The notes below the pieces were generated by a model that did no database searches, was not told where the DNA came from, and saw nothing but the letters and a program-made list of their open reading frames with translations. A stretch of 64,000 nucleotides of DNA. Source: Sediminicoccus sp. KRV36. GTDB taxonomy: Bacteria; Pseudomonadota; Alphaproteobacteria; Acetobacterales; Acetobacteraceae. Positions 4,045 through 49,765 of the stretch are shown piece after piece (within the stretch, counting starts at the first letter, position 1; the number at the start of each line of letters is the position of its first letter). The position numbers and the translations under genes are program-made. Location of the stretch: positions 2,232,001 through 2,296,000 of the forward strand of contig NZ_CP085081.1 in the NCBI RefSeq assembly GCF_023243115.1, given 5' to 3'.

Positions 4045-4054
4045 CCGCCCCTAC

Positions 4055-34276: not shown

Positions 34277-35242
34277 ATGCTGCTGCGCCGCTCCCTGCTC
34301 ACCGCCGCCGCCATCGGCTCGGCAATTCCCGCCTTGGCCCAGGAATGGCCCAGCGCGCCGGTCCGGGCCGTCGTGCCTTTCGCGGCCGGCAGCGCCACGG
34401 ACATCGTGGCGCGCCTCTTTGCCGACCGCATGCGTGAAACGCTGGGCCAGCCCGTGGTGGTCGAGAACCGCGCCGGCGCCTCGGGGCTGATCGGCGCCGA
34501 ATTCGTGGCGCGCGCGGCACCGGACGGCAATACTTTGCTGTTCGGCACCAATTCGACCAATGCGGCGGCGAATGCGCTGTTCCGCCGCGTGCCCTTCGAC
34601 ATGGAGCGCGATTTCGTTCCCGCCTCGATGCTCGCTTCGGTGCCGCTGCTGGTGGCGGTGCCCGCCAACAGCCCGCACCGCACGCTGACCGACCTGCTGG
34701 CCGCCGCCCGCGCGCGGCCGGAGGGGGTCTCCTTCGCCTCCGCCTCCTCCTCGCAGCGTGTCGCGGCCGAAATGCTGGCCTCGATGGCGGGTGTGCGGAT
34801 GCTGCATGTGCCTTACCGTGCCTCGCCCGCCGCCGTGCAGGATCTGATCGCGGGCCGGGTGGATCTTTTCATCGCCGACCAGGCGGTGATCCTGCCGCCG
34901 AGCCAGTCGGGGCAGCTGCGTGTGCTGGGCGTCACCACCCGCGCCCGCTCGCCGCAATTGCCCGATGTGCCGACCGTGGCGGAGGCCGGCAACCTGCCGA
35001 ACTACGAGCTTTTCGCGTGGTTCGTGCTCGCGGCACCCGCCGGCACGCCGCCGGCCCATCTCGCGCGGCTCAACGCCGCCGTGCGGCAGGCCAGCGCCAA
35101 CCCCGAATTGCGCCAGCGGCTGGAGCAGGTGCTCGGCATGACCGTGACGCCCTCCACGCAGGAGGAGGCGGTGGCCTTCATGCGCAGCGAGACGGTGAAA
35201 TGGACCAACGCGATCCGCGCGGCGGGCATCGAGCCGGAGTGA
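34277..35242 (+). CDS. TctC/Bug family tripartite tricarboxylate receptor
   Basis: 321 residues with signal peptide (MLLRRSLLTAAAIGSAIPALA). The core motifs are EWPSAPVRAVVPFAAGSATDIVAR, VVVENRAGASGLIGAEFVA, MLHVPYRASPAAVQDLIAGRVD and QLPDVPTVAEAG. GGAGG lies 6 bp before the ATG. It ends the amidase/HpnG-like operon, 56 bp after the previous stop, and may deliver the amidase substrate. No TctAB partner is adjacent. Confidence 0.92.
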   Translation: MLLRRSLLTAAAIGSAIPALAQEWPSAPVRAVVPFAAGSATDIVARLFADRMRETLGQPVVVENRAGASGLIGAEFVARAAPDGNTLLFGTNSTNAAANALFRRVPFDMERDFVPASMLASVPLLVAVPANSPHRTLTDLLAAARARPEGVSFASASSSQRVAAEMLASMAGVRMLHVPYRASPAAVQDLIAGRVDLFIADQAVILPPSQSGQLRVLGVTTRARSPQLPDVPTVAEAGNLPNYELFAWFVLAAPAGTPPAHLARLNAAVRQASANPELRQRLEQVLGMTVTPSTQEEAVAFMRSETVKWTNAIRAAGIEPE

Positions 35243-35331
35243 GGCACCCGATTTCGCCCACCAAGGGCTGGCCACCCGGGCGCTGATGCCCTCAACTGCG
35301 CGGTGCAGCTGCCGATCCGGAGGGCAAGAAC

Positions 35332-35676
35332 ATGCTTCCTGTCACGCAATTCCCGCGGCTTGGCCCGTGGCTGGTCCTGGGGGGCCTGATCTTCGTGCAG
35401 GCGGCGGCGGCGCAAACGCCCCTGCGCGAGCGCGAACCGAACCCGGCGGCGACGGGCGCGCAGGAACGCGCGGCCGGCATCGCCCCCACACCAGGGGCCG
35501 CTCGCCGCGAGGCGCAGGCCGAGGACCAGATCTATCGGCAGCTCCTGGGCCAGAACCCCAACGCGCCCAGTGCCGCGACCCCGCCACCGCCGATGAACAC
35601 GCCAGGCCAGGATGCGCGGGCCACGGATCAAATTCTCCGCGAGCTGACGGCACCCAGCCCGGGTGCCACACGCTGA
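35332..35676 (+). CDS. Small exported Pro/Ala-rich protein
   Basis: 114 residues. A hydrophobic N-segment (LVLGGLIFVQAAAA, cut near residue 28) is followed by a disordered, Pro/Ala/Arg-rich chain. Two related short helices, AEDQIYRQLLGQNP and ATDQILRELTAPSP, suggest an internal duplication. Function unknown. It is convergent with the TPR lipoprotein gene. Confidence 0.55.
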   Translation: MLPVTQFPRLGPWLVLGGLIFVQAAAAQTPLREREPNPAATGAQERAAGIAPTPGAARREAQAEDQIYRQLLGQNPNAPSAATPPPPMNTPGQDARATDQILRELTAPSPGATR

Positions 35677-35693
35677 ACGGGGTCAAGCGCGCT

Positions 35694-36563
35694 TCAGCCG
35701 GGGGGCAGCGCCGCCAGCTCCCGCCCGATGGCCGCGCGCATCGCTGAATCCGCGGCCACATTGCGGGCACGCGTGAGAAGGCGGCGCGCCGCCGCCTGGT
35801 CGCCGCGGGCGCTCGCACCCTGCGCCGCGCGCCAGGCGAAATCCGCCTCCCGATCGGGCTCGCCGGCCAGCCGCGCCGCATCGGCGGCGACCTCCAGCGC
35901 GCGGCCCAGCCCCCGGTAATCCAGTGCATCGCGCCGCAGCGTGGCGGCTTCCTCGGCGCGGGAGATCGCCAGCGCGGCATCGCGTCCCAGGAGGGCGATG
36001 CGCGCGTCAAGCTCGGCCGCATCGGCGCGGAAGTTGAAGGCTTGCGGCGTGCCCTGGCGTGCGCGCGCGGCACGCAGCGCCGGCCCGTCCTGGCGGGCAT
36101 CGGCGATCAGCCCCTCGACGAAGGCGGCGCGCAAGGCTGCATCGTGATCGGCGGATTCGCGCAGCGTGATGAGCAGCGGCAGCGCGCCATCCGGATCACC
36201 CAGCCGGTAGCGCGCCGTGGCCTCTGCCAGGGTGAGGGGGGCGGGCGGGGCCACGCCGCGTCGGCGCAAATCCAGCAGCACGGCCGCGGCCTGGTCCCGT
36301 GCCGCCAGCGCATTGCCCTGGCCCAGCAGGGCGGCCGCGCGTCCCGTCGCGGCATCGGCGATATCGGCGGGCGCATCGCGCTCACGCGCGCGTCGCAGCG
36401 CATCGCCATATTGCCGGACGGCCTCCTCGAAGCGCCCGGCATCCAGCGCGAGCCGCCCCGCGCGCAACGTGCGGGAGAGCGCCTCGTCCGGTTGCGGCGC
36501 GGGCGTTGTGGGTGCGCGCGCGCCGCACGCCGCCAGCAGCAGGATGAGCAGCAGCGCCCTCAT
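35694..36563 (-). CDS. TPR lipoprotein of the Mla-like operon
   Basis: 289 residues. The signal peptide MRALLLILLLAACG has a lipobox (LAAC, Cys at about 13). The mature part is a series of TPR helices (RLALDAGRFEEAVRQYGDALRRA and later blocks). The start overlaps the mlaD-like stop by 4 bp. This is the last gene of the operon. A periplasmic, membrane-tethered TPR protein here probably scaffolds the MlaD ring or an outer-membrane partner. Confidence 0.75.
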   Translation of the reverse strand: MRALLLILLLAACGARAPTTPAPQPDEALSRTLRAGRLALDAGRFEEAVRQYGDALRRARERDAPADIADAATGRAAALLGQGNALAARDQAAAVLLDLRRRGVAPPAPLTLAEATARYRLGDPDGALPLLITLRESADHDAALRAAFVEGLIADARQDGPALRAARARQGTPQAFNFRADAAELDARIALLGRDAALAISRAEEAATLRRDALDYRGLGRALEVAADAARLAGEPDREADFAWRAAQGASARGDQAAARRLLTRARNVAADSAMRAAIGRELAALPPG

Positions 36564-37621
36564 GGCCGGATGCGCTCGGCCGGCACGCGGTCCCGCTCCG
36601 GCAGCGGGCCACCGCCGCCCAGCAGCCAGAGTGCGCGCAGCTGCGCGATCATCGCCTCCAGCTCGCGCGTGGTGGCCTGCGCCTGGAGCAGCAGCGCCGG
36701 CAGGTTGGCCACGCTCTCCTCCACGCCACGCGCGATATTGGAGACGCGCGGCGAGGCCCGCGCCAGGTCCCGCGTGACCCTTTGCAGATCGGTCATGGCG
36801 GCATCCGCGCGGCGCAGCAGCACGGGGATGCCTTGCGGGCCGGAGAGCGAGCCCGTGATGCGCGCGCCATCCGCCGCCACCGTCTCCACGCTGGCGACGA
36901 TGCGGCGGAAGGCTTCCATCACCGCCCGTGCCTCAGTCACCACCGCCTCCAATTGCCCGCCCATCGTGTCATCGCTGAGCAGGCGGCCGATCAACCCCTC
37001 GCCGCGCTCGATGCGTCCGGTGGCCAGCGCCAGGCTATGCGCGGCCCGGCCGAGATCCTCCATGATGGGGAGGATGCGGCCGCGCACATCGTCAATGATG
37101 GCGCCCACGGTTTCCGTGGGCGCGCGCTCGGAATTCGCCTCGATCACGGCGTAGTTCCAGTCGAGCGGCGCGCCGGTGCCGCGCGCCACATCGAGGAAGG
37201 CCGCCCCCGCCACGCCGAAGCGCTTGCGGATGGTTGCCACCGAATCGCGGCGGATGAAGGGCTTGGCCTGCTCATCCAGCTGCACCTCGGCATAGAGGCG
37301 GGAGGCGGGGTTGATGACGATGCGCCGGACAGTGCCGGCCCGCGTGCCCAGCACCTCCAGCTCGGCCCCCACGGCGAGGCCGCTGATCCCCTCATCCGGC
37401 AGCAGGACGCGCAGCCGGGCCGAGGGCTGCAGCCATTCGCGCAGCACGCCGGCCTGCAGCACGGCGCCGAGGAACAGCACCAGCGCGATCAGCACAATGA
37501 GGCCGACCCATTCATCGCCGGCGAGGCGGCTGCGCCAGGAGATGCGGCCCCCAAGCGCGCGCTCCACGGGCGGCAATGCCTCCGCTGGCGGGGGCAGGGG
37601 GGATGGCGGCCGGTCGCTCAT
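36560..37621 (-). CDS. MlaD/MCE-domain lipid-transport protein
   Basis: 353 residues. One N-terminal membrane helix spans about 40-60, and the MCE domain about 64-145 with ISGLAVGAELEVLGTRAGTVRRI (residues 79-101, the typical GLxxGxxVxxxGxxVGxV pattern). A long helical region (about 165-335) forms the needle-like C-terminal assembly seen in MCE rings. It binds phospholipid or a hydrophobic solute in the periplasm. It is coupled by ATGA overlaps to the ABC-like gene upstream and the TPR lipoprotein gene downstream. Confidence 0.85.
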   Translation of the reverse strand: MSDRPPSPLPPPAEALPPVERALGGRISWRSRLAGDEWVGLIVLIALVLFLGAVLQAGVLREWLQPSARLRVLLPDEGISGLAVGAELEVLGTRAGTVRRIVINPASRLYAEVQLDEQAKPFIRRDSVATIRKRFGVAGAAFLDVARGTGAPLDWNYAVIEANSERAPTETVGAIIDDVRGRILPIMEDLGRAAHSLALATGRIERGEGLIGRLLSDDTMGGQLEAVVTEARAVMEAFRRIVASVETVAADGARITGSLSGPQGIPVLLRRADAAMTDLQRVTRDLARASPRVSNIARGVEESVANLPALLLQAQATTRELEAMIAQLRALWLLGGGGPLPERDRVPAERIRP

Positions 37622-38301
37622 GCCGCCACCCGGCGGATGGCATCAAGCCCGCCCGCCCCCAGCCGGTGGCGTTGCGTCGCCGGGATGGCCCGATCCGTCC
37701 AGACCGAGAGGCTGGTGGTCAGCCAGAGGCAGGCGGCGGGCTGGGCGGTGGCCAGCGCCTCCAGCAGCGGCAGGCGGAGTTCCGGCACGGTATTGCCTTG
37801 CAAGGGACTCTCCAGGATGAGCAGGCCGGGGCGGTTCAAGAAGGCGCGGGCGCAGGCGGCGCGGGCCAGCTCGGGCTGGCTGAGCTGGCCCGGGCGTTCG
37901 AGGGGCAGGCCGGGCAGGCCAAAGCGGCGGCAGAGTTCGGCCGCACGCTCCCGCAGCGCCGCGGCCGAGCCCAGCCGATGCTGCAACCCGGCCAGGATCA
38001 CGCTTTCCGCGACACTCAGATGCGGCGCCCAGCCGCCCTGCAGGCTGACCAGGCCGATGCGGCCGCGCAAGCTGCGCGCCGCATCGGGCGTCAGTTCGGC
38101 CCAATCCAGGCCGAGGGCGCTGACCACCCCGGCGCTGGGCGGGATCAGCCCCAGGCACAGCTCCGTGAAGCCGGTCAGCATCGCCGGGTCATCGGCCTGG
38201 ATCAGCGCCAATTCCCCGGGCAGCACCCGCAGGGCATAGCGCCCGCCCCGCGCATCGCGCAGGCCGTCCAGCTCCAGCGCCGGGATCTCGCTCGCGTTCA
38301 T
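37618..38301 (-). CDS. Degenerate ABC ATPase-like protein (MlaF position, all catalytic motifs lost)
   Basis: 227 residues with the outline of an ABC nucleotide-binding domain. GELALI...GLIPPSAG surrounds the place of Walker A, but GPxGxGKST is replaced by QADDPAMLT. The Q-loop region keeps SLQGGWAPHLSVAESV. LSGGQ is LSQPE (then LARAACARAFLNRP), Walker B LLLLDEP is LLILESP, and the H-loop reads TTSLS. The frame is open and coupled on both sides by ATGA overlaps, so this is a maintained pseudo-ATPase rather than a wrecked gene. Its partners are MlaE-like and MlaD-like proteins. Confidence 0.8.
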   Translation of the reverse strand: MNASEIPALELDGLRDARGGRYALRVLPGELALIQADDPAMLTGFTELCLGLIPPSAGVVSALGLDWAELTPDAARSLRGRIGLVSLQGGWAPHLSVAESVILAGLQHRLGSAAALRERAAELCRRFGLPGLPLERPGQLSQPELARAACARAFLNRPGLLILESPLQGNTVPELRLPLLEALATAQPAACLWLTTSLSVWTDRAIPATQRHRLGAGGLDAIRRVAA

Positions 38302-39071
38302 GCGGCCAGGCTCATCAGCACCGAGGCGATCAGGATGGAGAGCACGGCGCGCACGAAGCACACCGGCAGCAATTCCGCCGTGCTGGCGCCGGCGGGGGCG
38401 GTGAGGGCGGTATGCGCCGCCACCACGCCCACCAGCCCGCCCGCCACCAGCAGCTTGATGGGGAAGATCACCGTATCGGCCGGCTGCATGGCCCGCAGCA
38501 CGCCATCCAGCGAATCCAGCAGGGCCACCGACTGGTCCCCCAATGCCAGCGCCAGCGCGCCACCCGAGATCAATGCCACGGCGACGAAGAACACGCCCAG
38601 CGTGAAGGCGGCCAGCGCGAAGGCGAGCGATGCCGGCGCACCATAAAGCCGCAGCAGATCCACCCCCTGCAAGGTCAGGACGCGCGCGGCACCGCTGCCG
38701 CGCAGCGCGCCAAGCTCGGCCACCATGACCATGCCGGAGCGGCCGAGAATCAGCAGTGCCACCAGCACCGGTGCCAGTTCGCGCACCAGCACCGTGACCA
38801 GCACATTGGCCAGCAGCCCGCGTTGACCGACCACGCCGGACCAGCTGATGCCCTGGAACACCAGCCCCGCCCCGATCAGCAGCCCCAGCACCAGCGCCGC
38901 GAGCACACCCCCCAGCAGGGATTGCCGCAGCCGGCGGAACAGCTCCTGCCGCTCCGGGCCGCGCCAGCCTAGGGGACGCACCGCCCAGGCCATGAATTGC
39001 GCACTCAGGCCGAGGAGTTGCAGCACCAGCTGCACACCCCGGCGGAACGGGCTGCCCAGCGCCGCGAGCAT
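38298..39071 (-). CDS. MlaE-type ABC permease
   Basis: 257 residues with five to six membrane helices. Family landmarks are LVFQGISWSGVVGQRGLLANVLVTVLVRELAPVL (family: Q...G...va..v....reLaPvl), RSGMVMVAELGALRGSGAARVL (the coupling-helix EIGTM-like segment, here AELGALR) and FIIxLKLL-like IFPIKLLVAGGLVGVVAAH. MlaE permeases carry phospholipid between the inner membrane and MCE proteins. It overlaps the cyclase-like gene (TGATG) and the pseudo-ATPase gene (ATGA). Confidence 0.88.
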   Translation of the reverse strand: MLAALGSPFRRGVQLVLQLLGLSAQFMAWAVRPLGWRGPERQELFRRLRQSLLGGVLAALVLGLLIGAGLVFQGISWSGVVGQRGLLANVLVTVLVRELAPVLVALLILGRSGMVMVAELGALRGSGAARVLTLQGVDLLRLYGAPASLAFALAAFTLGVFFVAVALISGGALALALGDQSVALLDSLDGVLRAMQPADTVIFPIKLLVAGGLVGVVAAHTALTAPAGASTAELLPVCFVRAVLSILIASVLMSLAA

Positions 39072-41380
39072 CACAATGCCGCAGCCAGGATGTAGCAATT
39101 GCGCGGGCCATGCAGCGGTACATGAAAGGCGCCGCGCGGGCGGAACAGATATTGCCCGGCCAGCGCGGCATAGACCGCCTCGGTCGCCTGGATGCCGCCC
39201 AGCGGTGCCGATTGCGCCATCTGGTCGGCAAGGCGCGCGGCATCGCCCCAGAGGTTGAGAAACCCCTCGCCCGAGCCGACGCGGCTGCCGATGGCCACGC
39301 CCATATCCAGCCCGATGCGAAAGCCGGGCTCGGCCTCGGCCTCCTCGAAGAGGGCGGCGCAGCAGCTTCGCGCGGCCAGGGCGAAGGCGGCGATGCGGCG
39401 TGCCGCCGGGCGGCCTGCCTCCTCGGGCGTCAGGCCTGCGGCCGCCACGACCTCATCGCCGAGGAGCTTGAGGTAGGGGATGCCCGCCTCCTGCGCCGCG
39501 CGCTCCAGCGCATGGGCGATGCGGCCGACCAGCGCGCCTTGCAGGGCGGCGGCGCGGCGGCCCGCCAGTGCCAGCGGATCGGTGAAGCGCACCACCATCA
39601 CCGCGACCTGCGGATAGACATCGGCCGCGACCTCGGCCGAGAGGCTGGCGCTGAGGGCGGAATCGGCGAAGCCGGCACTGGCCGCGGCGGGCTCGGGCTC
39701 CAGCGCGTGCACGGCGGCCGCCCGGGCCGCGAGGCGTGCCTGGCCGCCCGCCATGCGCACCGCCAGCAGCTTCGCCAGGGCCTCCAGGAAGCCCTGGGTA
39801 TCGCCCGCCGTCTCCTGCGGGTCCTCCAGCCAGACCACGCCGAAGCTGCGCGCGCCATGCCGGATCGGGATGGCATGCAGCGCCGTCGTGCCGAGCGGGT
39901 TGAGCCAGATGCGATGCAGCTCCGCCGTGCTGCGCTCGCGCGCCGCATCGGCGGCGATGATCGGCTCGCCCGAGGCGAGGCGGGCGAAGAAGGCGGGCAT
40001 TTCCTCGCGCAGCAGCATCGCCTCGCTGGTGTGGCCGCCGCGTTCGGCGTCGTAGCCATCTTCCAGCGTCAGGCCGCGGCCATCGGGGGTCAGCCGCCAG
40101 ATGCAGGCGCGGGTGGCCTGGGCCACGCTGGCCAGGCGCTCGGTCAGGTCGGGCGGGAGGTCCGAGGCCGGGTCGAACAACGCGGCCGAGCCGGCCAGCT
40201 CCGCGAAGGCGGCGGATTGGGAGGCGATGCTCTGCTTCTCATCCAGCAGCCGGCGCGCCGCCACATCGGCCCGCAAGCCCTGGCGCACCAAGAGCAGCGC
40301 GAGGCCCAGCGCCACCAGCACGACGGCGAGGGACATGACCAGTGCGCGGCGGTTGTTCACCGCGACGAAGCCGGTGAAATCATCCTCCGGCACGGTGATG
40401 ACCAGCCGCCAGCCGGAGGTCGCTTCGGCGCCAAGCCTGCTGGAGATGATGATGTGCCGCGCGCCGTTCACATCCTCGGCCGCATGCACGTTGCCTTGCA
40501 GGCGGATCAGGTCGAAGGCGCGGGCGAGGACGGGATCGCCGATTTCATCCAGCCGGTTGGGGATCGGGCCTTCGGGGCCGGTGCGCATCGCGCGGTCGGC
40601 CTGCGGATGGGCGATGATGCGGCCCTGCGCATCCACGATCACCGCCTGGCCGTGACGGCCGATCTGCAGGCTCGCCAGGAAGTCCGACAAGGCGCGCAGC
40701 GAGACATCCAGCGCGATCACGCCGAAGGGTGCCGCCTCATCGAGCCGCCGGACGGCGGTGGCGACGGTCAGCCCCATCACGCGGTCGGTGAAGAAGAGAT
40801 AGAGATCGGTCCAGGCCTCGTCCGGGTCACTGATGGCGGCGCGGAACCAGGGGCGGGTGCGCGGGTCGAATTCATGTTCGGCCTGCGGCTCCTCCCTGAT
40901 CAGGCGTTCCTGCCGGTCATAGGTCTTGAGGACCAGGCTGCGCGGCCCGGGTTCGTTGCGAATGACAAAGGAGGAATAGCCCCCCTCGGCCACGCGCCGG
41001 ACGGCGATGTAGTTGCCCGCCTGGTCCGCCGCCATGAACAGCGAGATATGCGACAATTGATCCAGCACGGCGCGGCCGAAATTCTCCAGCGTCTCGCGTT
41101 GCCCGCCGCGCACGGCAGGGGCGTTGAACACCTCCCGCGCGTAGCGCGCGGCGCGCTCGCCACTGGCGAAGAAGCCGCCGATTTCCTGCGCGACGCGCGC
41201 CTCCAGGCTGCCTAGCATTTCCTCGCTCAGCGCCAGCGCGCCCTGGCGATTGGCCTGGTAGCTGTGCAGCGCGATGGTCAGCACCGCGCCGATGATGAGC
41301 GCGACACCCGCCAGCGGCAGGATGATGCGCAAGGCCGCCTGGCGGCGCCGCGCGCCGGAAAGAAGGGCCGCTCCACTCAT
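39071..41380 (-). CDS. Membrane sensor: Cache - GAF - degenerate class III cyclase domain
   Basis: 769 residues: TM1 about 18-38, a periplasmic dCache-like domain about 40-335 (DPRTRPWFRAAI, VMGLTVATAVRR), TM2 about 343-365, a GAF domain about 405-545, and a nucleotidyl-cyclase homology domain about 590-760. In the last, the metal-binding DIxGFT is replaced by VVRFTDPL and the GDxVNLAxR transition-state motif by GDAARLADQ; only LLGDEVVAA keeps its Asp. It therefore probably senses rather than makes cAMP or cGMP. It is coupled to DUF6285 upstream and mlaE downstream. Confidence 0.8.
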   Translation of the reverse strand: MSGAALLSGARRRQAALRIILPLAGVALIIGAVLTIALHSYQANRQGALALSEEMLGSLEARVAQEIGGFFASGERAARYAREVFNAPAVRGGQRETLENFGRAVLDQLSHISLFMAADQAGNYIAVRRVAEGGYSSFVIRNEPGPRSLVLKTYDRQERLIREEPQAEHEFDPRTRPWFRAAISDPDEAWTDLYLFFTDRVMGLTVATAVRRLDEAAPFGVIALDVSLRALSDFLASLQIGRHGQAVIVDAQGRIIAHPQADRAMRTGPEGPIPNRLDEIGDPVLARAFDLIRLQGNVHAAEDVNGARHIIISSRLGAEATSGWRLVITVPEDDFTGFVAVNNRRALVMSLAVVLVALGLALLLVRQGLRADVAARRLLDEKQSIASQSAAFAELAGSAALFDPASDLPPDLTERLASVAQATRACIWRLTPDGRGLTLEDGYDAERGGHTSEAMLLREEMPAFFARLASGEPIIAADAARERSTAELHRIWLNPLGTTALHAIPIRHGARSFGVVWLEDPQETAGDTQGFLEALAKLLAVRMAGGQARLAARAAAVHALEPEPAAASAGFADSALSASLSAEVAADVYPQVAVMVVRFTDPLALAGRRAAALQGALVGRIAHALERAAQEAGIPYLKLLGDEVVAAAGLTPEEAGRPAARRIAAFALAARSCCAALFEEAEAEPGFRIGLDMGVAIGSRVGSGEGFLNLWGDAARLADQMAQSAPLGGIQATEAVYAALAGQYLFRPRGAFHVPLHGPRNCYILAAAL

Positions 41381-41706
41381 CCGAGCGCGCGCGGGGCAGT
41401 GACCGCGCAGCGCAATTCCACCATCTCCCGCAGCAGGGCGGCAGCGCCGGCATGGGCGGGCGTTCCGGGCTGATAGGCGCCGGCGCGGATGCGGGCCGCG
41501 AATTGCGCCGGGCCTTCCGCGAAATTGGCAAGGCGCTCCTGCAGGTGCCCGGGGTCCACCGTGCTGGCGCGGGCGGCGATGGCCATGGCATTGGCGATCA
41601 TCCGCGCCTCATAATGCAGATGCGCGGGCAGGGCAGGCAGCAGCTTGCCCAGCAGCGCCTCGCGCGCCGTGGCCAGCAGATCCGCCGCGTCAGGCTGTTC
41701 CAGCAT
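41377..41706 (-). CDS. DUF6285 protein, LvaB-like partner of the APH-fold kinase
   Basis: 109 residues, all-helical, with the family pattern LLATAREALLGKLLPALPAHLHYEARMIANAMAIAAR and a C-terminal LLREMVELRCAV. In levulinate-degrading Pseudomonas the small protein LvaB, of similar size, is required with the kinase LvaA. The location here, overlapping the kinase gene by 17 bp, fits the same role. No catalytic residues are obvious. The stop overlaps the sensor gene start (ATGA). Confidence 0.75.
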   Translation of the reverse strand: MLEQPDAADLLATAREALLGKLLPALPAHLHYEARMIANAMAIAARASTVDPGHLQERLANFAEGPAQFAARIRAGAYQPGTPAHAGAAALLREMVELRCAVTAPRALG

Positions 41707-42664
41707 CGAGCGCCTCCACCTGCCGCAGGATGTCCATTTCCAGCTCGGGGATGATCTGCGCCGTCAAGGCGAGTTCCAGGCTGCGCTCCACGCCCGAGAG
41801 GTGGCGCGCCCCCTGGTCGGCGGCGATCACCGCCCAGCGGATGGTGGCGGCGAGTTCCCAGAAGGGCAGGCGTGACGCATCGGCGCCGGCGCCATAGCCA
41901 TCGAGGAAGGCCGCGCGCGACCCCAAGCCACCCGCCTCCAGCCCAGAATTGCCGAAGCGCCAGCAGGGCGCACAGAACCAGCCGAGATCGGCATGCGGGT
42001 CCCCCCAGGCGGCGAATTCCCAGTCGAGCACGGCGGTCACGGCATGGCCCTCCACCATCAGATTCCCGGTGCGGAAATCATTGTGGCACAGCACGGGCGG
42101 CAGCGGTGGCGGCAGGTTGCGGGCCAGGGCGGCCAGGCCCCATTCCACCGCCGGGCGTGGCGTGCCTGCCGCATCAAGCCGCGCCTGCATGGCGGTGATG
42201 AAGCCGGCCCCCGCATCGGCCGGCGGCTCGCCCAGGAAGGCGAGGTCAGCGCGCGGGGGGCGGATGCGATGAATGCGCGCAAGCTCGGCACCCAATGCGC
42301 GCACCAGCGCATCATCCCCGCCCTGGGCGGCGGCGGCCTTGGCAAGGCGAAAGCCCGTGGCCGTGCCGGCGACCCGGCGCATCACGAAAAACGGCGCGCC
42401 GATGACGGAGGCGTCCTCGCAGCAGGAGAGCGGCTCGGGCACGGTCACACCTTCGGCATGGGCGGCGCGCAGCAGCGCGTATTCGGCCGTTCGCGGCAAT
42501 GAGACGGCGAGGGTGGCGGCGTTGTCCGTCCGCAACACCCATTCCTGGCCATCGGCCAGCGTCAGCGCCCAATTCTGCTGGATGGCGCCGCCCGAGAGCA
42601 GGCTGGCGCCCGTGATCTCGACGCCGAGCCAGGCATTCAGCGCCGCGCGCCGGGCTTCGTTCAT
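41690..42664 (-). CDS. APH-family kinase, ACAD10/11- and LvaA-like
   Basis: 324 residues with the aminoglycoside-phosphotransferase fold. LSGGAIQQNWAL is the nucleotide loop, WVLRTD holds the ATP-contacting position, the Brenner motif is LCHNDFRTGNLM (HxDxxxxN near residue 216), and the metal Asp is in VLDWEFAAWGDPHADLGWF. Adjacent to an ACAD10/11-type dehydrogenase, it most likely phosphorylates the 4-hydroxyl of a 4-hydroxyacyl-CoA. ATG 42664 overlaps the dehydrogenase stop (ATGA). Confidence 0.85.
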   Translation of the reverse strand: MNEARRAALNAWLGVEITGASLLSGGAIQQNWALTLADGQEWVLRTDNAATLAVSLPRTAEYALLRAAHAEGVTVPEPLSCCEDASVIGAPFFVMRRVAGTATGFRLAKAAAAQGGDDALVRALGAELARIHRIRPPRADLAFLGEPPADAGAGFITAMQARLDAAGTPRPAVEWGLAALARNLPPPLPPVLCHNDFRTGNLMVEGHAVTAVLDWEFAAWGDPHADLGWFCAPCWRFGNSGLEAGGLGSRAAFLDGYGAGADASRLPFWELAATIRWAVIAADQGARHLSGVERSLELALTAQIIPELEMDILRQVEALDAGTA

Positions 42665-43860
42665 GGCCCCCAGGCGAAGAAATCGCCGCCCTCGCGCCGC
42701 AGGAAATTCGCGATGACCATGCGATGCACCTCGGAGGCGCCATCCACCAGCCGCGCCTGCCGGGCATAGCGATACATCCACTCGACGGGCGTGTCCTTCG
42801 AGTAGCCGCGGGCGCCCAGCAGCTGGATCGCGGTATCGGCGGCACGGTGCAGCGCATCAGCGGCGACGATCTTGGCGATGCTGACTTCCTTGCGGGCGAA
42901 ATCCCCCTGGTCGAGCTTCCAGGCGGCGCGCATCGTCAGCAGGCGCGCGATGTCGAGCTGCATCGCGGCCTCACCCACCATCATCTGCACGCTTTCCTTG
43001 TCGGCCAGCTTCTGGCCGAAGGCGTGGCGTTCCTCGATGCGGGCCATGGCGATTTCGAGGGCACGGCGGCCCATGCCGGTCCAGCGCATGCAATGGGTGA
43101 GGCGCGCGGGGCCGAGGCGGATCTGCGTCATCTTCAGGCCATCGCCCACACCCATCAGGATGTTCTCGTCGGCGACTTCCAGGCCATCGAAGGTGATCTC
43201 GCAATGGCCGCCATGTTCCTCGGGGCCCATGATCGGGATGCGACGCTCGATCTTCCAGCCGGGCTGGTCGGCGTGGAACAGGAAGGCCGTCAGTCCCTTG
43301 CGCGGATCATCGCTGGTGCGGGCCATGACGATGAAATGCCTGCTCTCGCCGGCACCGGTGATGAACCACTTGCGGCCGTGAATCCGCCAGCGATCATTGC
43401 CCGCGCGCTCGGCATAGGTTTTCGTCATGCCGGGGTCGCTGCCGGCGCCCTCGGGCTCGGTCATGGCGAAGCTGGACTGCACCTCGCCGCGCACCACCGG
43501 CATCATCCACCATTTTTTCTGCGCGGGTGTGCCGACCTTGTTCAGCACCATCATGTTGCCGTCATCGGGGGCGGCCGAGTTGAAGCAGACGGGGCCGAAG
43601 ATGGAGCGGTTCATCTCCTCGTAGCAGGCGGCCATGCCGGTGAAGGGCAGGCCCTGGCCGCCGATATCCTCGGGCAATTGCAGGCACCAGAGGCCCGCTG
43701 CCTTCACCTCGGCGCGCAGCGTCTTCAGCAGGCCAGGGGCGATGTTCTCATGCGCGTCATAGCTGGCGCGGTCGGCCTCCAGCGGGATCAGCCGGTCATT
43801 GACGAAGGCGCGAACGGCCTGGCGCTTGGCTTCGCTTCGGGCGTCGAGGGTGAAGTCCAT
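42661..43860 (-). CDS. Acyl-CoA dehydrogenase family enzyme, ACAD10/11- and LvaC-like
   Basis: A 399-residue FAD enzyme. The N-domain carries FNSAAPDDGNMMVLNKVGT, the APDxGNM signature of the ACAD10/ACAD11 group, then FAMTEPEGAGSDP (FAD/CoA contacts) and WFITGAG. The C-domain has ERHAFGQKLADKESVQ, QLLGARGYSKDTPVEWMYRYARQARLVDG. In that group the enzyme eliminates phosphate from a 4-phosphoacyl-CoA and rehydrates to the 3-hydroxy ester. It is followed with overlap by the kinase gene. Confidence 0.9.
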   Translation of the reverse strand: MDFTLDARSEAKRQAVRAFVNDRLIPLEADRASYDAHENIAPGLLKTLRAEVKAAGLWCLQLPEDIGGQGLPFTGMAACYEEMNRSIFGPVCFNSAAPDDGNMMVLNKVGTPAQKKWWMMPVVRGEVQSSFAMTEPEGAGSDPGMTKTYAERAGNDRWRIHGRKWFITGAGESRHFIVMARTSDDPRKGLTAFLFHADQPGWKIERRIPIMGPEEHGGHCEITFDGLEVADENILMGVGDGLKMTQIRLGPARLTHCMRWTGMGRRALEIAMARIEERHAFGQKLADKESVQMMVGEAAMQLDIARLLTMRAAWKLDQGDFARKEVSIAKIVAADALHRAADTAIQLLGARGYSKDTPVEWMYRYARQARLVDGASEVHRMVIANFLRREGGDFFAWGP

Positions 43861-43885
43861 CTGCGTGGTCTTTCAGAGAGGATTG

Positions 43886-44623
43886 TCAGAGGGCATTGAT
43901 ACTGTGGCCGCCATCCACGGTGATGACGCTGCCTGTCATATGCGCGCCGGCCCTGGATGCCAGCAGCAGCAGCGGACCATCCAGATCCTCGGGCGTGCCC
44001 AGGCGGCGCTGCGGAATGCGCTTGATCATCGCCTGCCCGCCCTCGGAGGCGAAGAATGCGGCGTTGATGTCGGAGGCGATGTAACCTGGTGCGATGGCAT
44101 TCACCCGTATGTCGTGCCGCGCGAGTTCAACGGCCATCTGCCGCGTGAGTTGCAACAGCCCGGCCTTGGCGGCGGTATATCCCGCGACACCGGGGATGAT
44201 GCGGCTGCCCAGCACCGATGCGATGTTGATGATGGAGCCGCCCGATTTGCGCGCCACCATGCAGCGGGCCGCCGCCTGGCCCACCAGGAAGGCGCCGCGC
44301 AGATTGATGGAGAGCACCTGGTCGAACTCGGCGGCGGTGTGATCGAGGAACGGCCTGGTCGCGGCAATGCCGGCATTATTCACCAGGATGTCGCAATCGG
44401 GTGCCGCTTCGAAGGCGGCGGCGATGCTGGCTTCATCCTGCACATCCAGGCGGATGGCCTGCGCTTCCTTGCCGAGTTCAGCCGCCAGTTGCGCGCAGGC
44501 CTCCACACGCCGGGCCGCGAGCACGACCTCGGCGCCGGCCGAATGCAACAGGCGGGCGAAATGCGCGCCAAGCAGGCCCGAAGCCCCGGTGATGAGGGCC
44601 TTGCGCCCCCGCAGCGAAAACAT
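43886..44623 (-). CDS. SDR family oxidoreductase, LvaD-like position
   Basis: 245 residues. TGASGLLGAHFARL (residues 12-25) binds NAD(P); NNAG is near 88, the catalytic Ser in INIASVLGS, and Tyr/Lys in GYTAAKAGLLQ. The ending TGSVITVDGGHSINAL is typical of classical SDRs. Placed first among the CoA enzymes, it may interconvert a 4-keto- and 4-hydroxyacyl-CoA, as LvaD does. It lies 25 bp before the dehydrogenase gene and 55 bp after the TctC gene. Confidence 0.85.
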   Translation of the reverse strand: MFSLRGRKALITGASGLLGAHFARLLHSAGAEVVLAARRVEACAQLAAELGKEAQAIRLDVQDEASIAAAFEAAPDCDILVNNAGIAATRPFLDHTAAEFDQVLSINLRGAFLVGQAAARCMVARKSGGSIINIASVLGSRIIPGVAGYTAAKAGLLQLTRQMAVELARHDIRVNAIAPGYIASDINAAFFASEGGQAMIKRIPQRRLGTPEDLDGPLLLLASRAGAHMTGSVITVDGGHSINAL

Positions 44624-44678
44624 GTCCTGGCGCCTCCCGTGTTCTTCCCGGCGAAGATCAGCGGTGGCACCCCGATGG

Positions 44679-45641
44679 TCAACCCGGCGTGATGCGGGCC
44701 ACGATGGGGGCCCAGCGCGCCACCTCGGCCGCGATGTGGCGCGCGGCGGCTTCCGCACTCGGATCGGCCCAGGTCTCGACATTGGCGGTGAGCAGCCGGG
44801 CCTTCACGGCGGGGTCGGCCACGGCGGCCAAGGCCGCGGCGCTGATGGCACGGCGGGCTTCCTCCGGCCCGCCCGGGCGCGTGAACAGCACCTGCCAGGC
44901 GGTCAGGTCATAGCCGGGCAGGGCGGAGGCGATGGGCGGCAATCCGGGGGCAAGGGCCGAAGCCTCGGCACTGGTCACGGCGATGGGCTTCAGCTTGCCG
45001 TCGCGGATCAGCGGCATCATCAGCGTCGGGCTGTCGATCGAGAAATTCATGCGTCCCGCCAGCAGGTCCTGCACGGCGGCGGCGGCGGTGCGGTAGGGCA
45101 CGATGGTGAATTGCGTGCCGGAGAGCTGCTTGAACAACTCGCCCGCCAGGTGATTGGTGGCGCCGGGATTGGCCGAGCCGAAATTCGCTCGGTCACCTTG
45201 CGCGCGCAGCCAGGCGAGCAGCGCGGGCAGGTCATTCGCGGGCACATCGGGGTGCACCGCCAGCACGAAGGGCTGCCGGCCGATACCGGCGATGGGCACG
45301 AAATCCGTCACCGGATCATGCGGGAAATTCGGATAGACGGCGCGCATCACCGGATGGTTGTTGGTACCGATGAACATCGTGCCACCGTCATTGGCCGCGC
45401 GGTGGAAGGCGGCCGCCCCCACCGTGCTGCCGGCGCCCACGACATTCTCCGGGATGATGGGCTGGCCGATCTGCGCCTGCATGCCCTCGGCCAGGATGCG
45501 GCCCACCACATCGGTCACGCCGGCGACACCGACCGGGATGATCATGCGCAGGGGCCGGGTGAATTGCGCCCGCGCCACGATGGGTTGCACCGCGAAGGGC
45601 AGGAGGGTTGCGGTGGCAAGGAGTTGGCGGCGTTGCGGCAT
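44679..45641 (-). CDS. TctC/Bug family tripartite tricarboxylate receptor, operon-leading
   Basis: 320 residues with signal peptide (MPQRRQLLATATLLPFAVQPIVARA). The core reads RPLRMIIPVGVAGVTDVVGRI, PIIPENVVGAGSTVGAAAF, FTIVPYRTAAAAVQDLLAGRMNFSID. An AGAGAGG site precedes ATG 45641. Bug receptors bind short carboxylates, so this one may present the acid degraded by the following SDR/ACAD/kinase genes. It is divergent from the NMT1-like gene. Confidence 0.9.
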   Translation of the reverse strand: MPQRRQLLATATLLPFAVQPIVARAQFTRPLRMIIPVGVAGVTDVVGRILAEGMQAQIGQPIIPENVVGAGSTVGAAAFHRAANDGGTMFIGTNNHPVMRAVYPNFPHDPVTDFVPIAGIGRQPFVLAVHPDVPANDLPALLAWLRAQGDRANFGSANPGATNHLAGELFKQLSGTQFTIVPYRTAAAAVQDLLAGRMNFSIDSPTLMMPLIRDGKLKPIAVTSAEASALAPGLPPIASALPGYDLTAWQVLFTRPGGPEEARRAISAAALAAVADPAVKARLLTANVETWADPSAEAAARHIAAEVARWAPIVARITPG

Positions 45642-45720
45642 GGAATGGCCTCTCTTGGCGGTCGGTGTGGTGTGGCGCACGATGCAGGCTTTAGGAATGC
45701 TCGCTCTCGGGATGCAAGCC

Positions 45721-46635
45721 ATGCGCCAGATCACCCTGCAGGAGCCCTTCCGGGCCGTCTTCTATGCGCCTTTCTATGCCGCACTCGCGCGCAATGCCTA
45801 TGCGGCGCAGGGGCTGGGCGTCACCGTGCTGGCGGGAACGCAGCCTTCGCTCGCCAAGGACTCCGTTTTGAGCGGCGTGGCGCATCTCGCCTGGGGCGGG
45901 CCCATGCGCATCCTGCTCGCGCATGATGCGGATGCAGCCTCGCCACTGCGCAATTTCGGGGCGGCGATCCTGGGCGATCCCTTCTTCCTCATCGGCCGCG
46001 CGCCACGTCCGCATTTCCACCTCGCGGAGCTGGCCGGCATGACGCTCGGCACCGTGAGCGAGGTGCCGACACCCTGGTGGACCTTGCAGGATGACATCCG
46101 CCGCGCCGGGCTTGATCCCGCCAGCATCACGCGCGTGACGGACCAGCCCATGGCGGCCAATGCGGCGGCGGTGGCGGAGGGGCGCCTGGATGTGGCGCAG
46201 CTCTTTGAGCCCTTCGCCAGCCAGATGGCGCGGGACGGCACCGGCCATGTCTGGCATGCGGCCGCTTCGCGTGGGCCCACCAGCTACACGACCTTCTATT
46301 CCACCGCTGCGAATATCGCGGAATACGCGCCCGAATTTCGCGCCATGATCCGCGGCCTCGCCGCCACGCAAAGCTGGTTCATGGCGGCCCCGCCGGAGGC
46401 GATCGCCGCCACCATCGCGGGCTACTTCCCGGCGATGGAGCCCAAGCTGCTGGCCGCCTGCATCGCGCGCTACCGGGCCTTGGGCATCTGGACGGTTGAT
46501 CCGCATTTCCCGGCCGAGAGCTTCAACCGGCTGGAGGCCGCCATGCTCAGCGCGGGCGCCATCCGCCGCGCGCCGGGCTATGCGAATTGCGTGGATGACG
46601 CCATCGTGACGATGGCGCTCGCCGAGAAGAAGTGA
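45721..46635 (+). CDS. NMT1/THI5-like substrate-binding domain protein without a signal peptide
   Basis: 304 residues from ATG 45721, which starts exactly at the domain (ITLQEPFRAVFYAPFYAALARNAYAAQGL, the ABC-type NMT1 opening). Later blocks are VAHLAWGGPMRIL, LAELAGMTLGTVSEVPTPWW and AEGRLDVAQLFEPFA. Further in-frame ATGs at 45712, 45697 and 45682 add no convincing signal peptide, so the protein seems cytoplasmic. It lies 19 bp before leuC and is probably cotranscribed with leuCDB, an odd partner. Start uncertain. Confidence 0.7.
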   Translation: MRQITLQEPFRAVFYAPFYAALARNAYAAQGLGVTVLAGTQPSLAKDSVLSGVAHLAWGGPMRILLAHDADAASPLRNFGAAILGDPFFLIGRAPRPHFHLAELAGMTLGTVSEVPTPWWTLQDDIRRAGLDPASITRVTDQPMAANAAAVAEGRLDVAQLFEPFASQMARDGTGHVWHAAASRGPTSYTTFYSTAANIAEYAPEFRAMIRGLAATQSWFMAAPPEAIAATIAGYFPAMEPKLLAACIARYRALGIWTVDPHFPAESFNRLEAAMLSAGAIRRAPGYANCVDDAIVTMALAEKK

Positions 46636-46654: not shown

Positions 46655-48052
46655 ATGCCCAGCACGATGTTCGACAAGATCTGGGACCGGCACGTCATCG
46701 CCGATCTCGGCGAGGGCTGGTCGCTGCTCTATCTGGACCGCATCCTGGTGCATGATCTGAGTGGCGGGCGTGCCATGGCGGAGCTGGCCGAAGCAGGGCG
46801 CCACGTGGCCGAGCCGCGCAAGGTGTTTGCCACGCCGGACCATGCCGTCTCCACCCTGCCGGGCCGCACCGCCGCCACCTACCCGAAGGGCGAGCGGCTG
46901 CTGAAATCCCTGCGGGAGCGCTGCGCGGCCGAGGGTGTGCGCATGTTCGACCTCAACCAGCCCGGCAATGGCATCGTGCATGTCATCGCACCCGAACTGG
47001 CCATCGTGCTGCCGGGCCTGACGCTGGCCTGTGGAGACAGCCACACCTGCACCAATGGCGGCGTGGGGGCGATGGCCTTCGGCATCGGCGCCAGCGAATT
47101 GGGCCATGCGCTCGCCACGCAGACCCTGCCGCAGCGACGCCCGGGCACCTTCCGCATCCGCTTCGAAGGCACGCGCCCTTTGGGTGTCACGGCCAAGGAC
47201 ATGATCCTCGCCGCCATCGGCCGTTTTGGTGCGGCGGCGGGGACCGGCATGGCGATGGAATATGCCGGCAGCGCCGTCCAGGCGCTGTCGATGGAGGAGC
47301 GGCTGACGCTGTGTAACCTCTCCATCGAGATGGGTGCCAAGGTCGGCATGGTGGCCCCGGATGAGACCACCTTCGCCTACCTGGCCGGCCGCGAATTCGC
47401 GCCCAAGGGTGCCGCCTGGGACGCTGCGCTGCGCGATTGGCGCGCCCTGCCGAGTGACCCCGGCGCGCGCTTCACGCGTGATGAGGTGATCGCGATGGAG
47501 GACATCGCGCCCCAGATCACCTGGGGCACGAGCCCCGAGCAGGTGGCCGCCGTCACCGGCCATGTGCCGAACCTCTCGGAAGCGCCCAATGAGGGCAAGC
47601 GCGCCGCCTGGGAGGCCGCACTGGACTATATGGGCCTGCAACCCGGCCAGAAGCTGGAGGGCACGCGGGTGGACTGGGTGTTCATCGGCTCCTGCACAAA
47701 TTCGCGCCTGTCCGATCTGCGCGCCGCCGCCGATGTGCTGAAGGGCCGCCACAAGGCCGATCACGTCACCGCCTGGGTGGTGCCAGGCAGCGAGACGGTG
47801 AAGGCCGAGGCCGAGGCCGAGGGCCTGCATCTGCGCTTCCAGGAAGCGGGCTTTGAATGGCGCGAGCCCGGCTGCGCGCTGTGCGTCGCCGCCAATGGCG
47901 AGGCGGTGCCCGACGGGGCGCGCTGCGTCTCCACCTCCAACCGCAATTTCGTGGGGCGGCAGGGGACGGGGGCGCGCACGCATCTGGCCTCCCCCGCCAT
48001 GGCGGCGGCCGCGGCGCTGGCGGGCGCCATCGTGGATGTGAGGAGCTTCTGA
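46655..48052 (+). CDS. leuC: 3-isopropylmalate dehydratase large subunit
   Basis: A 465-residue aconitase-family protein. HVIADLGEGWSLLYLDRILVHDL opens it; CGDSHTCTNGGVGAMAFGIGASE (about residues 128-150), FIGSCTNSRLSDL near 345 and GCALCVAANGE near 408 give the three 4Fe-4S cysteines. It isomerises 2- to 3-isopropylmalate in leucine synthesis with LeuD. leuD follows after 1 bp. AGGAGG lies just ahead of the start. Confidence 0.94.
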   Translation: MPSTMFDKIWDRHVIADLGEGWSLLYLDRILVHDLSGGRAMAELAEAGRHVAEPRKVFATPDHAVSTLPGRTAATYPKGERLLKSLRERCAAEGVRMFDLNQPGNGIVHVIAPELAIVLPGLTLACGDSHTCTNGGVGAMAFGIGASELGHALATQTLPQRRPGTFRIRFEGTRPLGVTAKDMILAAIGRFGAAAGTGMAMEYAGSAVQALSMEERLTLCNLSIEMGAKVGMVAPDETTFAYLAGREFAPKGAAWDAALRDWRALPSDPGARFTRDEVIAMEDIAPQITWGTSPEQVAAVTGHVPNLSEAPNEGKRAAWEAALDYMGLQPGQKLEGTRVDWVFIGSCTNSRLSDLRAAADVLKGRHKADHVTAWVVPGSETVKAEAEAEGLHLRFQEAGFEWREPGCALCVAANGEAVPDGARCVSTSNRNFVGRQGTGARTHLASPAMAAAAALAGAIVDVRSF

Positions 48053-48053
48053 C

Positions 48054-48677
48054 ATGCAGGATTTTCAGAGCGTCACCGGCTGCGCCATCCCGCTGATGGA
48101 AGCCAATGTGGATACGGATGTGATCATCCCCATCCAGCGCCTGGTCGGCACTGGCCGCGAGGGGCTGGGCGTGCATGCCTTCGAACGCCGCCGCTATGTG
48201 AGCGAGGGCGTGGACAATCCGGATTTCATCCCCAACCAGGCGCCATATCGCAACAGCCCCATCCTGCTGGCCGCCGAGAATTTCGGCTGCGGCTCCTCGC
48301 GCGAGGGGGCGGTCTGGGCGCTGATGGGCATGGGCGTGCGCTGCGTCATCGCCCCCAGCTTCGGCGACATCTTCTTCTCCAACTGCTTCCAGAACGGGCT
48401 GCTGCCCGTGCAACTCCCCATCGAGGTGGTGCGCCGCATCGCCGAGGAAACCGCGGCGAGCCCCGGCAATGCGCGCACCACGGTGGATCTGGAGCGCCAG
48501 GTGGTCATCACCCCCTCGGGCGAGGCGATCCCCTTCAGCGTGGACCAGCGCAAGCGCGAGGCCATGCTGCACGGGCTGGATGACATCGCGCTGACGATGC
48601 AGCAGGCCGATGCCATCGCCGCCTGGAAAGCCCGCGACAGCGCCGAGCGCGGCTGGGCCTGGGAGAGCGTGGCATGA
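48054..48677 (+). CDS. leuD: 3-isopropylmalate dehydratase small subunit
   Basis: 207 residues, swivel domain of the isopropylmalate isomerase. The family pattern GCAIPLMEANVDTDVIIPIQRL is at the N-terminus. ILLAAENFGCGSSREGAVWALMGMGVRCVIAPSFGDIFFSNCFQNGLLPV (positions about 65-115) contains the GCGSSREHA-like substrate loop, here REGAV. The stop overlaps the leuB start (ATGA). Confidence 0.95.
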   Translation: MQDFQSVTGCAIPLMEANVDTDVIIPIQRLVGTGREGLGVHAFERRRYVSEGVDNPDFIPNQAPYRNSPILLAAENFGCGSSREGAVWALMGMGVRCVIAPSFGDIFFSNCFQNGLLPVQLPIEVVRRIAEETAASPGNARTTVDLERQVVITPSGEAIPFSVDQRKREAMLHGLDDIALTMQQADAIAAWKARDSAERGWAWESVA

Positions 48678-49765
48678 AGGTCCTGGTGCTGCCCGGCGAT
48701 GGCGTGGGCCCCGAGGTCACGGCCGAGGCGGTGCGCGTGCTGCGCTGGTTCGCGGAATATCGCGGCCTCGATCTCACGCTGGTGGAGCGCGATTTCGGCA
48801 TCGTGAACTGGCACAAGCACGGCACGCTGATGCCGGATGAAACCTGGGCGCAGATCGAAGCCACCGATGCCATCCTGTTCGGCGCCACAGGCTCGATTGA
48901 TCAGCAGGGCCTGGTCCCGCCGGAGGAGCGCCGCAAGGGTTCGCTGCTGCGCATGCGCAAGGCGCTGGATCTCTTTGCCAATATGCGCCCCGTGCGGATG
49001 CAGCCCGCGCTGACGGAGGCCAGCCCCTACAAGCCGCGCATTACGGCGGGGGTGGATCTGTGCTTCGTGCGCGAACTCACGGCGGGGATGTATTTCGGCA
49101 CGCCGCGCGGCGTCGAGACGCTGGCCGATGGCACGCGGCGCGGAGTGAACACCCACACCTACACCGAGGCCGAGATTGCCCGCGCGGCGCGCTTCGCCTT
49201 CACCCTGGCCCGCACGCGCCGCAACCATGTGACCAGCGTGGACAAGGCCAATGTGATGGAGGCGGGCGCCTTGTGGCGCGAGATGGTGGGGAAGATCCAC
49301 GCCAGCGAATTTCCCGATGTCGGCTTCGAGAACATGCTGGCGGATAATTGCGCCATCCAGCTGGCGCGCGCGCCGAGGCGCTTCGATGTGGTGGTGACGG
49401 ACAACCTGTTCGGCGATCTGCTGAGCGATGCGGCCGGTGCGATCGTCGGCTCGCTCGGCATGCTGCCCTCGGCCTCGTTGTCGGAGCCGGATGCCGCCGG
49501 CCGACGGCGCGCCCTGTATGAGCCGATCCATGGCTCGGCGCCGGATATCGCGGGGCAGGGGATCGCCAATCCCCTGGGTGCGATCCTCTCGGTGGCGATG
49601 CTGCTGCGCTGGAGTGCGGGCCGCCCGCAGGATGCCGATGCGCTGGAAGCGGCGGTGGAGGCCGCCCTGGCCGGTGGTGCGCGCACCGCCGATATCGCCG
49701 CCCCCGGCGAGGCGGTGATGGGCACGCGCGCCATGGGCGATGCGGTGATCGCCGCCCTCGGATAA
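48674..49765 (+). CDS. leuB: 3-isopropylmalate dehydrogenase
   Basis: A 363-residue beta-decarboxylating dehydrogenase. LPGDGVGPEV at the start, LLRMRKALDLFANMRPV (substrate Arg residues), VRELTAGMYFGTPRG, the catalytic Lys/Asp in VTSVDKANVMEAGALWR and TDNLFGDLLSDAAGAIVGSLGMLPSAS, and YEPIHGSAPDIAGQGIANPLG binding NAD. It oxidises 3-isopropylmalate to the leucine 2-oxo precursor. Related homoisocitrate or tartrate-type enzymes share these motifs; the leuCD context supports LeuB. Confidence 0.92.
   Translation: MKVLVLPGDGVGPEVTAEAVRVLRWFAEYRGLDLTLVERDFGIVNWHKHGTLMPDETWAQIEATDAILFGATGSIDQQGLVPPEERRKGSLLRMRKALDLFANMRPVRMQPALTEASPYKPRITAGVDLCFVRELTAGMYFGTPRGVETLADGTRRGVNTHTYTEAEIARAARFAFTLARTRRNHVTSVDKANVMEAGALWREMVGKIHASEFPDVGFENMLADNCAIQLARAPRRFDVVVTDNLFGDLLSDAAGAIVGSLGMLPSASLSEPDAAGRRRALYEPIHGSAPDIAGQGIANPLGAILSVAMLLRWSAGRPQDADALEAAVEAALAGGARTADIAAPGEAVMGTRAMGDAVIAALG

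Follow-up and report, generated by a model that had tools for sequence, protein, structure and literature searches.

A conserved five-gene MCE module with two putative pseudoenzymes adjoins a coenzyme A operon in Sediminicoccus sp. KRV36

Both the use of ATP by MCE systems and the direction of lipid flow through them are debated. Several described systems resemble, in the accessible parts of the reports cited here, the last five genes of a ten-gene run found in a 64,000-nucleotide stretch of the Sediminicoccus sp. KRV36 genome (4.91 Mb, single contig), referred to below as the window. For the Mpc (chimeric Mla-Pqi) system of Brucella abortus, the likeness lies in a gene set of MlaE, an MlaF-type subunit, a long MlaD and a lipoprotein, with MpcD being predicted to form a needle that would reach the outer-membrane lipoprotein (PMC12436622). 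MlaFEDB shares the MlaE permease, an MlaD with MCE domain and transmembrane helix, and a subunit of nucleotide-binding-domain (NBD) fold, and the Mla system of Veillonella parvula combines MlaE and an NBD with an elongated MlaD that has been proposed as an envelope bridge (PMC10665443). Pqi and Let possess an MCE needle without ATPase, PqiA and LetA having no ATPase domain, and Pqi additionally features a lipoprotein anchor (PMC12436622). In mycobacterial Mce1 with MceG and Mce1N, a YrbE/MlaE-type permease is accompanied by a non-ATPase protein at the NBD site (PMC10517005). The five genes of the window encode a membrane-bound sensor with Cache, GAF and cyclase-like domains, an MlaE-like permease, an ATP-binding cassette (ABC) type subunit, a long MlaD and a TPR-type lipoprotein (Table 1). 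This module, in which two subunits look like pseudoenzymes and for which a gating mechanism is proposed below, is the noteworthy object of the locus. The best explanation we can offer, and a tentative one, is that an upstream coenzyme A (CoA) operon and the MCE module are two units on a common transcript in this genus, and that the module, judging by its sequences, might act as a passive, sensor-gated conduit.

By sequence, the ABC-fold subunit appears to have lost the motifs needed to bind or hydrolyse ATP. The protein of the window lacks Walker A, the SGG signature and the H-loop His and carries Glu in place of the Walker B Asp, while its NBD fold is present and intact. Among 215 distinct ABC-like sequences, read with two paralogues from the window genome as motif control, none has Walker A, SGG in the signature region or the Walker B Asp, and two have the H-loop His. 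At the Walker B position, Glu is invariant. The invariant Glu and the intact fold would suit an unorthodox ATP site in this protein; considering that Walker A and the signature are missing throughout and the H-loop His almost throughout, such a site is regarded as highly improbable. Recent decay of the gene was rejected on account of dN/dS and wide conservation, and a frame or start error was rejected as well, the 541-residue open reading frame (ORF) at 39243-37618 being an upstream frame extension of a gene that starts at 38301. Because the ATPase is degenerate, ATP-driven uptake of substrate by an Mla-like importer is unlikely. A literature search, outside which most subscription journals and preprints lay, brought up no naturally degenerate ATPase in any MCE system, no paper joining MlaE with an adenylate cyclase and a Cache domain, and no paper on DUF6285. 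Relatives carry the source annotation 'ATP-binding protein', and a published survey identified MlaF via synteny (PMC10665443); modules of this kind may therefore be tallied among functional ATPases.

The pseudo-ATPase was detected in 121 of 200 genomes of an order draw, all listed genomes of which belong to one family (E 1e-40 or better; ordinary ABC proteins start at about 1e-25, leaving a gap below the pseudo-ATPase matches). An earlier family draw gave 45 of 150 genomes at E 1e-27 or better and one further partial match, both counts being tallied by hand from tables. In a class draw, the protein occurred in 5 of 337 genomes, one of them outside the family, and in a phylum draw in 6 of 398, with the same single outsider. 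Going by the named loci, the family is Acetobacteraceae; the pseudo-ATPase is common there, and its occurrence elsewhere is patchy.

The last five genes form a widespread, self-contained MCE module. Sensor, MlaE, ABC-like subunit and MlaD are adjacent in all of 20 same-family relatives, with MlaE adjoining the sensor every time, and the TPR gene was detected in 15 of them; two of the five misses (L033, L051) are located at or near contig ends. At none of these 20 modules was a match to TctC, the acyl-CoA dehydrogenase (ACAD), the APH kinase or DUF6285 obtained, and generic SDR matches (29-42% identity) occurred nearby in three. A larger set of 81 loci outside the genus (80 plus L105, partly repeating the first 20) contains Asaia, Gluconacetobacter, Komagataeibacter and Acetobacter as well as metagenome-assembled genomes (MAGs) labelled Desulfobacterales, Deltaproteobacteria, Gammaproteobacteria, Sedimentisphaerales and Limisphaerales. 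In 74 of the 81, all five genes are present in order, a count that includes L181 in spite of its different type of sensor, as well as L111, L120 and L150, where genes are split. The exceptions comprise three short contigs (L129, L158, L174), L179 without sensor on a contig that stops after MlaD, L184 without detected sensor or TPR gene, and two MAGs labelled Rhodopila (L163, L171). A tblastn search (1e-5) with five CoA-side proteins against the flanks (up to 6 kb) of the 81 loci matched none. Nor was a sixth conserved gene seen, as the 25 largest clusters of neighbouring ORFs held none of the 28 loci listed as deep.

Hence, the sensor belongs to the transporter module, because it sits there in relatives without CoA genes nearby; the earlier view that it lies 'between' two halves of a pathway is not supported. 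Its cyclase domain matches the class III cyclase profile PF00211, and PDB cyclases were found by profile. Residues were read against the PDB cyclase 7yz9 in 84 distinct sensors, after sensors below 600 or above 1100 residues and nine repeats had been dropped. In 83 of these 84, Asn replaces the adenine-specifying Asp in a WG motif; the catalytic Asn was found once (L170), the catalytic Arg in four sensors and both together in none, and the second metal Asp in nine, including that of the window. By these residues, the domain would have lost what is needed to make cyclic nucleotides. L181, a Desulfuromonadales MAG, stands outside the 84: here, a response-regulator-receiver plus cyclase protein (4035-5084) overlaps mlaE and follows a hybrid histidine kinase. 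On visual inspection, this protein retains the metal Asp and Lys motifs and has Gln for both Asn and Arg. In this locus, the input domain is swapped and a cyclase-like output still lies beside MlaE.

That both enzyme-like subunits look inactive by sequence, and that the two Rhodopila MAGs keep sensor, MlaE and ABC-like genes with no MlaD or TPR gene detected adjacent (downstream of about 6650), would also suit a signalling device in which MlaE, MlaD and the lipoprotein sense the lipid state of the envelope and relay it to the sensor, without any transport. An inactive cyclase, however, gives no obvious output, and MlaD has retained its MCE domain and long helical part, which makes this reading rather improbable. 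In the AlphaFold2 model of the window's MlaD (mean pLDDT 73.5, pTM 0.44), a transmembrane helix (29-56) is followed by a confident MCE domain (about 68-164) and by C-terminal helices of low confidence. The C-terminal Pro (window 36560-36568) is conserved in 83 of 88 distinct relatives, and one of the other five (L081) is cut by a contig end. The lipoprotein Cys column is kept in 77 of 78 distinct relatives and a lipobox pattern in 71 of 78. MlaD proteins below 250 and TPR proteins below 230 residues had been dropped before the Pro and the lipoprotein counts, respectively. TPR domains are clear in the lipoprotein of L167, that of the window showing weak TPR-type Pfam matches only. Conceivably, the Pro-COOH tail of MlaD is a docking site for the lipoprotein. 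The MlaE protein shows PF02405 alone, and no STAS (MlaB) match was obtained among the window proteins scanned, STAS domains not having been searched genome-wide.

According to the explanation favoured here, the module would act as an ATP-independent lipid conduit. The Cache domain would read a periplasmic ligand and thereby change the pseudo-cyclase dimer, which in turn could open or close MlaE by way of the pseudo-ATPase dimer. From their families, MlaE is probably the inner-membrane gate, the long MlaD a periplasmic needle and the TPR lipoprotein the anchor at its far end. Analogy with Veillonella, Mpc and PqiA/LetA likewise suggests an ATP-free bridge. Possibly, the modules even represent a distinct class of MCE lipid machines, both pseudoenzymes being kept as a mechanical relay that gates an MlaE-MlaD-lipoprotein bridge with passive flow, a proposal we make with considerable reserve.

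Several observations weigh against a passive, sensor-gated conduit. Two pseudo-ATPases (L051, L183) keep His at the H-loop column, 70 of the 84 sensors retain an Asp close to strand 1, and the window's own sensor retains the Lys and second metal Asp columns. The receiver-cyclase case comes from a single MAG, L179 and L184 hold MlaE-ABC-MlaD without this sensor, and lipid is named as cargo from MlaE and MlaD homology only. Moreover, in Acinetobacter an MlaF engineered to lack ATPase activity has a dominant-negative effect (PMC6365058), so that loss of the ATPase does not necessarily leave a passive conduit that works. Finally, every module bearer among the 200 order genomes has, by eye, at least two PF02405 matches and so at least one other MlaE; an ATPase may be shared from such a canonical system.

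The latter point leads to a rival in which the motor is borrowed: the canonical MlaF of another Mla system would bind this MlaE, and the pseudo-subunit would compete as a regulator or placeholder, like Mce1N versus MceG. The window genome indeed contains two further MlaE genes with canonical MlaF neighbours, along with three further MlaD matches. PF02405 was matched in all 200 order genomes, mostly three times in module bearers and twice or once in the others. Competition of Mce1N with the NBD for the permease has been reported (PMC10517005), and the dominant-negative MlaF suits a regulator or placeholder equally well. This finding accordingly took the passive-conduit explanation from an even chance to marginally below one and raised the borrowed motor by a similarly small step. 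Against the latter, the pseudo-subunit keeps a full NBD fold with its own permease gene adjoining, and the module MlaE aligns with the two further MlaE proteins of the genome at just 28-41% identity and only over partial stretches. In addition, the pseudo-subunit lacks both signature and Walker A, so that, from what is generally known of ABC proteins, a mixed dimer would have no complete ATP site. Taken together, a borrowed motor is judged unlikely, albeit deserving serious attention.

Inside the genus, the module meets the CoA operon. The APH gene is present in 17 of 21 genus genomes (the window's included) and the sensor in four. In 13 of the 17 genomes bearing the CoA operon, several of which are incomplete drafts, no sensor match was found anywhere, and the stretch read past DUF6285 contains no module gene. 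Three of the four module-bearing genomes keep the junction, namely those of the window, G150 and G160, their sensors being 67% (G150) and 51-59% (G160) identical to that of the window. In the window and in G150, the module starts right after DUF6285. G160 shows the order ACAD, APH, small ORF and sensor, with the remaining module genes on a second contig; its small ORF is DUF6285-like by eye only, as tblastn at 1e-8 gave no match. In the fourth genome, G166, another CoA operon, consisting of CoA-transferase, ACAD and enoyl-CoA hydratase, precedes the module (L082:4185-6743). In a tree, the modules of these four genomes group together as a single clade (support 1.0), with Neoroseomonas soli and Plastoroseomonas hellenica as sister (0.975), and none of the 71 outside loci that entered the tree falls within it.

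The junction is old within the genus yet dissociable, each half managing without the other. A mere chance neighbourhood was rejected for the genus on the strength of the single clade and the junction kept in three of four genomes; conservation in relatives, named beforehand as decisive, is absent outside the genus and present inside it. Further upstream, SDR adjoins ACAD in 12 of the 13 other genus genomes whose contig extends past ACAD, and in the same 12 a divergent aconitase/isocitrate-dehydrogenase-like set lies beyond SDR, G160 having neither in the 12 kb read. The window itself carries, on the plus strand at 46655-49765 and divergent from the CoA operon, genes for aconitase-like large and small subunits and an isocitrate/isopropylmalate-dehydrogenase-like protein. 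TctC is found in part of the genus operons only and is not ahead of SDR in G150, G153, G155 and G151. For the five closest relatives, whose APH is 88-92% identical, a gene related to the window's CoA-transferase III gene gives the next match past DUF6285. In the window, this family III gene (30686-31861, minus strand) and a second TctC receptor (34277-35242, plus strand) are located near the downstream end of the module.

The original prediction had joined the ten genes in a single pathway: a hydroxylated acyl substrate would come in by the MCE part or TctC and be degraded by the Lva-like genes, and the sensor in between would, on this reading, control both. Some observations agree with it: the halves are adjacent in three genus genomes, G166 has its CoA-transferase/ACAD/enoyl-CoA-hydratase run ahead of the module, and in L169, a Desulfobacterales MAG, the gene about 200 bases 5' of the sensor (740-2452) encodes an AMP-binding enzyme of the acyl-CoA-synthetase family. 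In view of this last gene, a loose tie of the module to acyl-CoA metabolism may exist. No common upstream function emerged in other genera, where four upstream genes were put to Pfam; the other three belong to unrelated families (aldehyde dehydrogenase in L163, FAD oxidoreductase at 1.4 kb distance in L166 and a phosphate acetyl/butyryl transferase on the opposite strand in L173). Since the flanks of the 81 outside loci (up to 6 kb) gave no CoA-gene match and the module is missing from 13 of the 17 genus genomes with the CoA operon, a single ten-gene pathway was rejected as the principal explanation and is considered improbable.

The CoA half fares better by itself. ACAD11 chains are among five PDB matches of the APH kinase and top the list of the dehydrogenase, which supports, as far as sequence matches go, an ACAD11-type kinase and dehydrogenase and fits the proposed Lva-like hydroxyacyl-CoA reading at family level; its extension to a joint pathway with the transporter finds no support. 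Roles have been described for LvaABCD of Pseudomonas putida, where genes for kinase, small partner, dehydrogenase and SDR likewise occur together (PMC6692424, accessible part); unlike there, the run in the window has no CoA ligase. No PDB match was found for the DUF6285 protein, a candidate counterpart of LvaB. The genus CoA operon of SDR, ACAD11-like dehydrogenase, APH and DUF6285 probably serves hydroxyacyl-CoA breakdown via a phosphorylated intermediate.

All ten minus-strand genes from TctC to the TPR lipoprotein are present as originally listed, and Pfam backs nine of them, the TPR match being below cut-off. Start codons were picked by the analyst and are ATG for all ten. Gaps of 55 and 25 nucleotides separate TctC/SDR and SDR/ACAD, respectively, and the predicted overlap at every junction from ACAD onward is correct, with seven overlaps of 4, 17, 4, 1, 4, 4 and 4 nucleotides in order. 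A scan of 35200-45900 gave no sigma-70-type promoter-like site and three terminator-like sites versus 2.6 expected, i.e., no excess over chance, all three inside genes. One transcription unit is hence plausible in the window, as the idea of a single operon implied; functionally, two units are seen, each of which is found without the other. The 4-kb step 36001-40000 has the highest AT skew (0.161) and GC content (0.735) of the window's steps.

Table 1 Features of the ten-gene run in the window
Feature	Coordinates	Strand	Basis
TctC solute receptor	44679..45641	-	PF03401
SDR oxidoreductase	43886..44623	-	Pfam and NCBIfam
Acyl-CoA dehydrogenase, ACAD11-like	42661..43860	-	Pfam; best PDB match 2wbi (ACAD11)
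APH-type kinase, ACAD11-kinase-like	41690..42664	-	PF01636; PDB 8v3u/8v3v (ACAD11) among five matches
DUF6285 protein, last gene of CoA operon	41377..41706	-	PF19802, 44 bits; after APH in genus relatives
Sensor, membrane protein, 769 residues	39071..41380	-	Pfam dCache_1, GAF, Guanylate_cyc; cyclase-like domain without catalytic Asn and Arg
MlaE-like permease, 257 residues	38298..39071	-	PF02405, E 2.9e-23, 83 bits (cut-off 22.5)
Putative ABC nucleotide-binding-domain pseudo-ATPase, 227 residues	37618..38301	-	ABC_tran 31 bits, partial
Long MlaD: transmembrane helix, MCE domain, helical C-terminal part of about 190 residues, C-terminal Pro	36560..37621	-	PF02470, 31.7 bits (cut-off 25.1)
TPR-type lipoprotein, N-terminus MRALLLILLLAACG	35694..36563	-	Sequence; TPR_16 18.4 bits, under Pfam cut-off 32.7

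A conserved MCE permease paired with an ATPase that looks dead by sequence amounts to a natural experiment on what the NBD scaffold does without ATP, and the module supplies a defined sensor input that could be tested in acetic acid bacteria amenable to genetics. In Mpc, the ATPase MpcF is well conserved, MpcE bears a STAS domain, and the lipoprotein is PqiC-like (PMC12436622); the module differs by a degenerate ATPase, no Pfam STAS on MlaE, a lipoprotein of apparent TPR type and an added Cache-GAF-pseudo-cyclase sensor. It differs from MlaFEDB in the lack of functional ATPase motifs, of an MlaB gene in the run and in the length of MlaD. Veillonella parvula has an MlaF closely resembling the model ones, and the accessible part of that report mentions neither a sensor nor a TPR gene (PMC10665443). 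While MceG of mycobacterial Mce1 is an active ATPase and Mce1N a membrane protein with two transmembrane helices (PMC10517005), Pqi and Let, as described in the accessible text, differ in the permease, which in the module is MlaE instead of PqiA or LetA, with the putative pseudo-ATPase being retained (PMC12436622).

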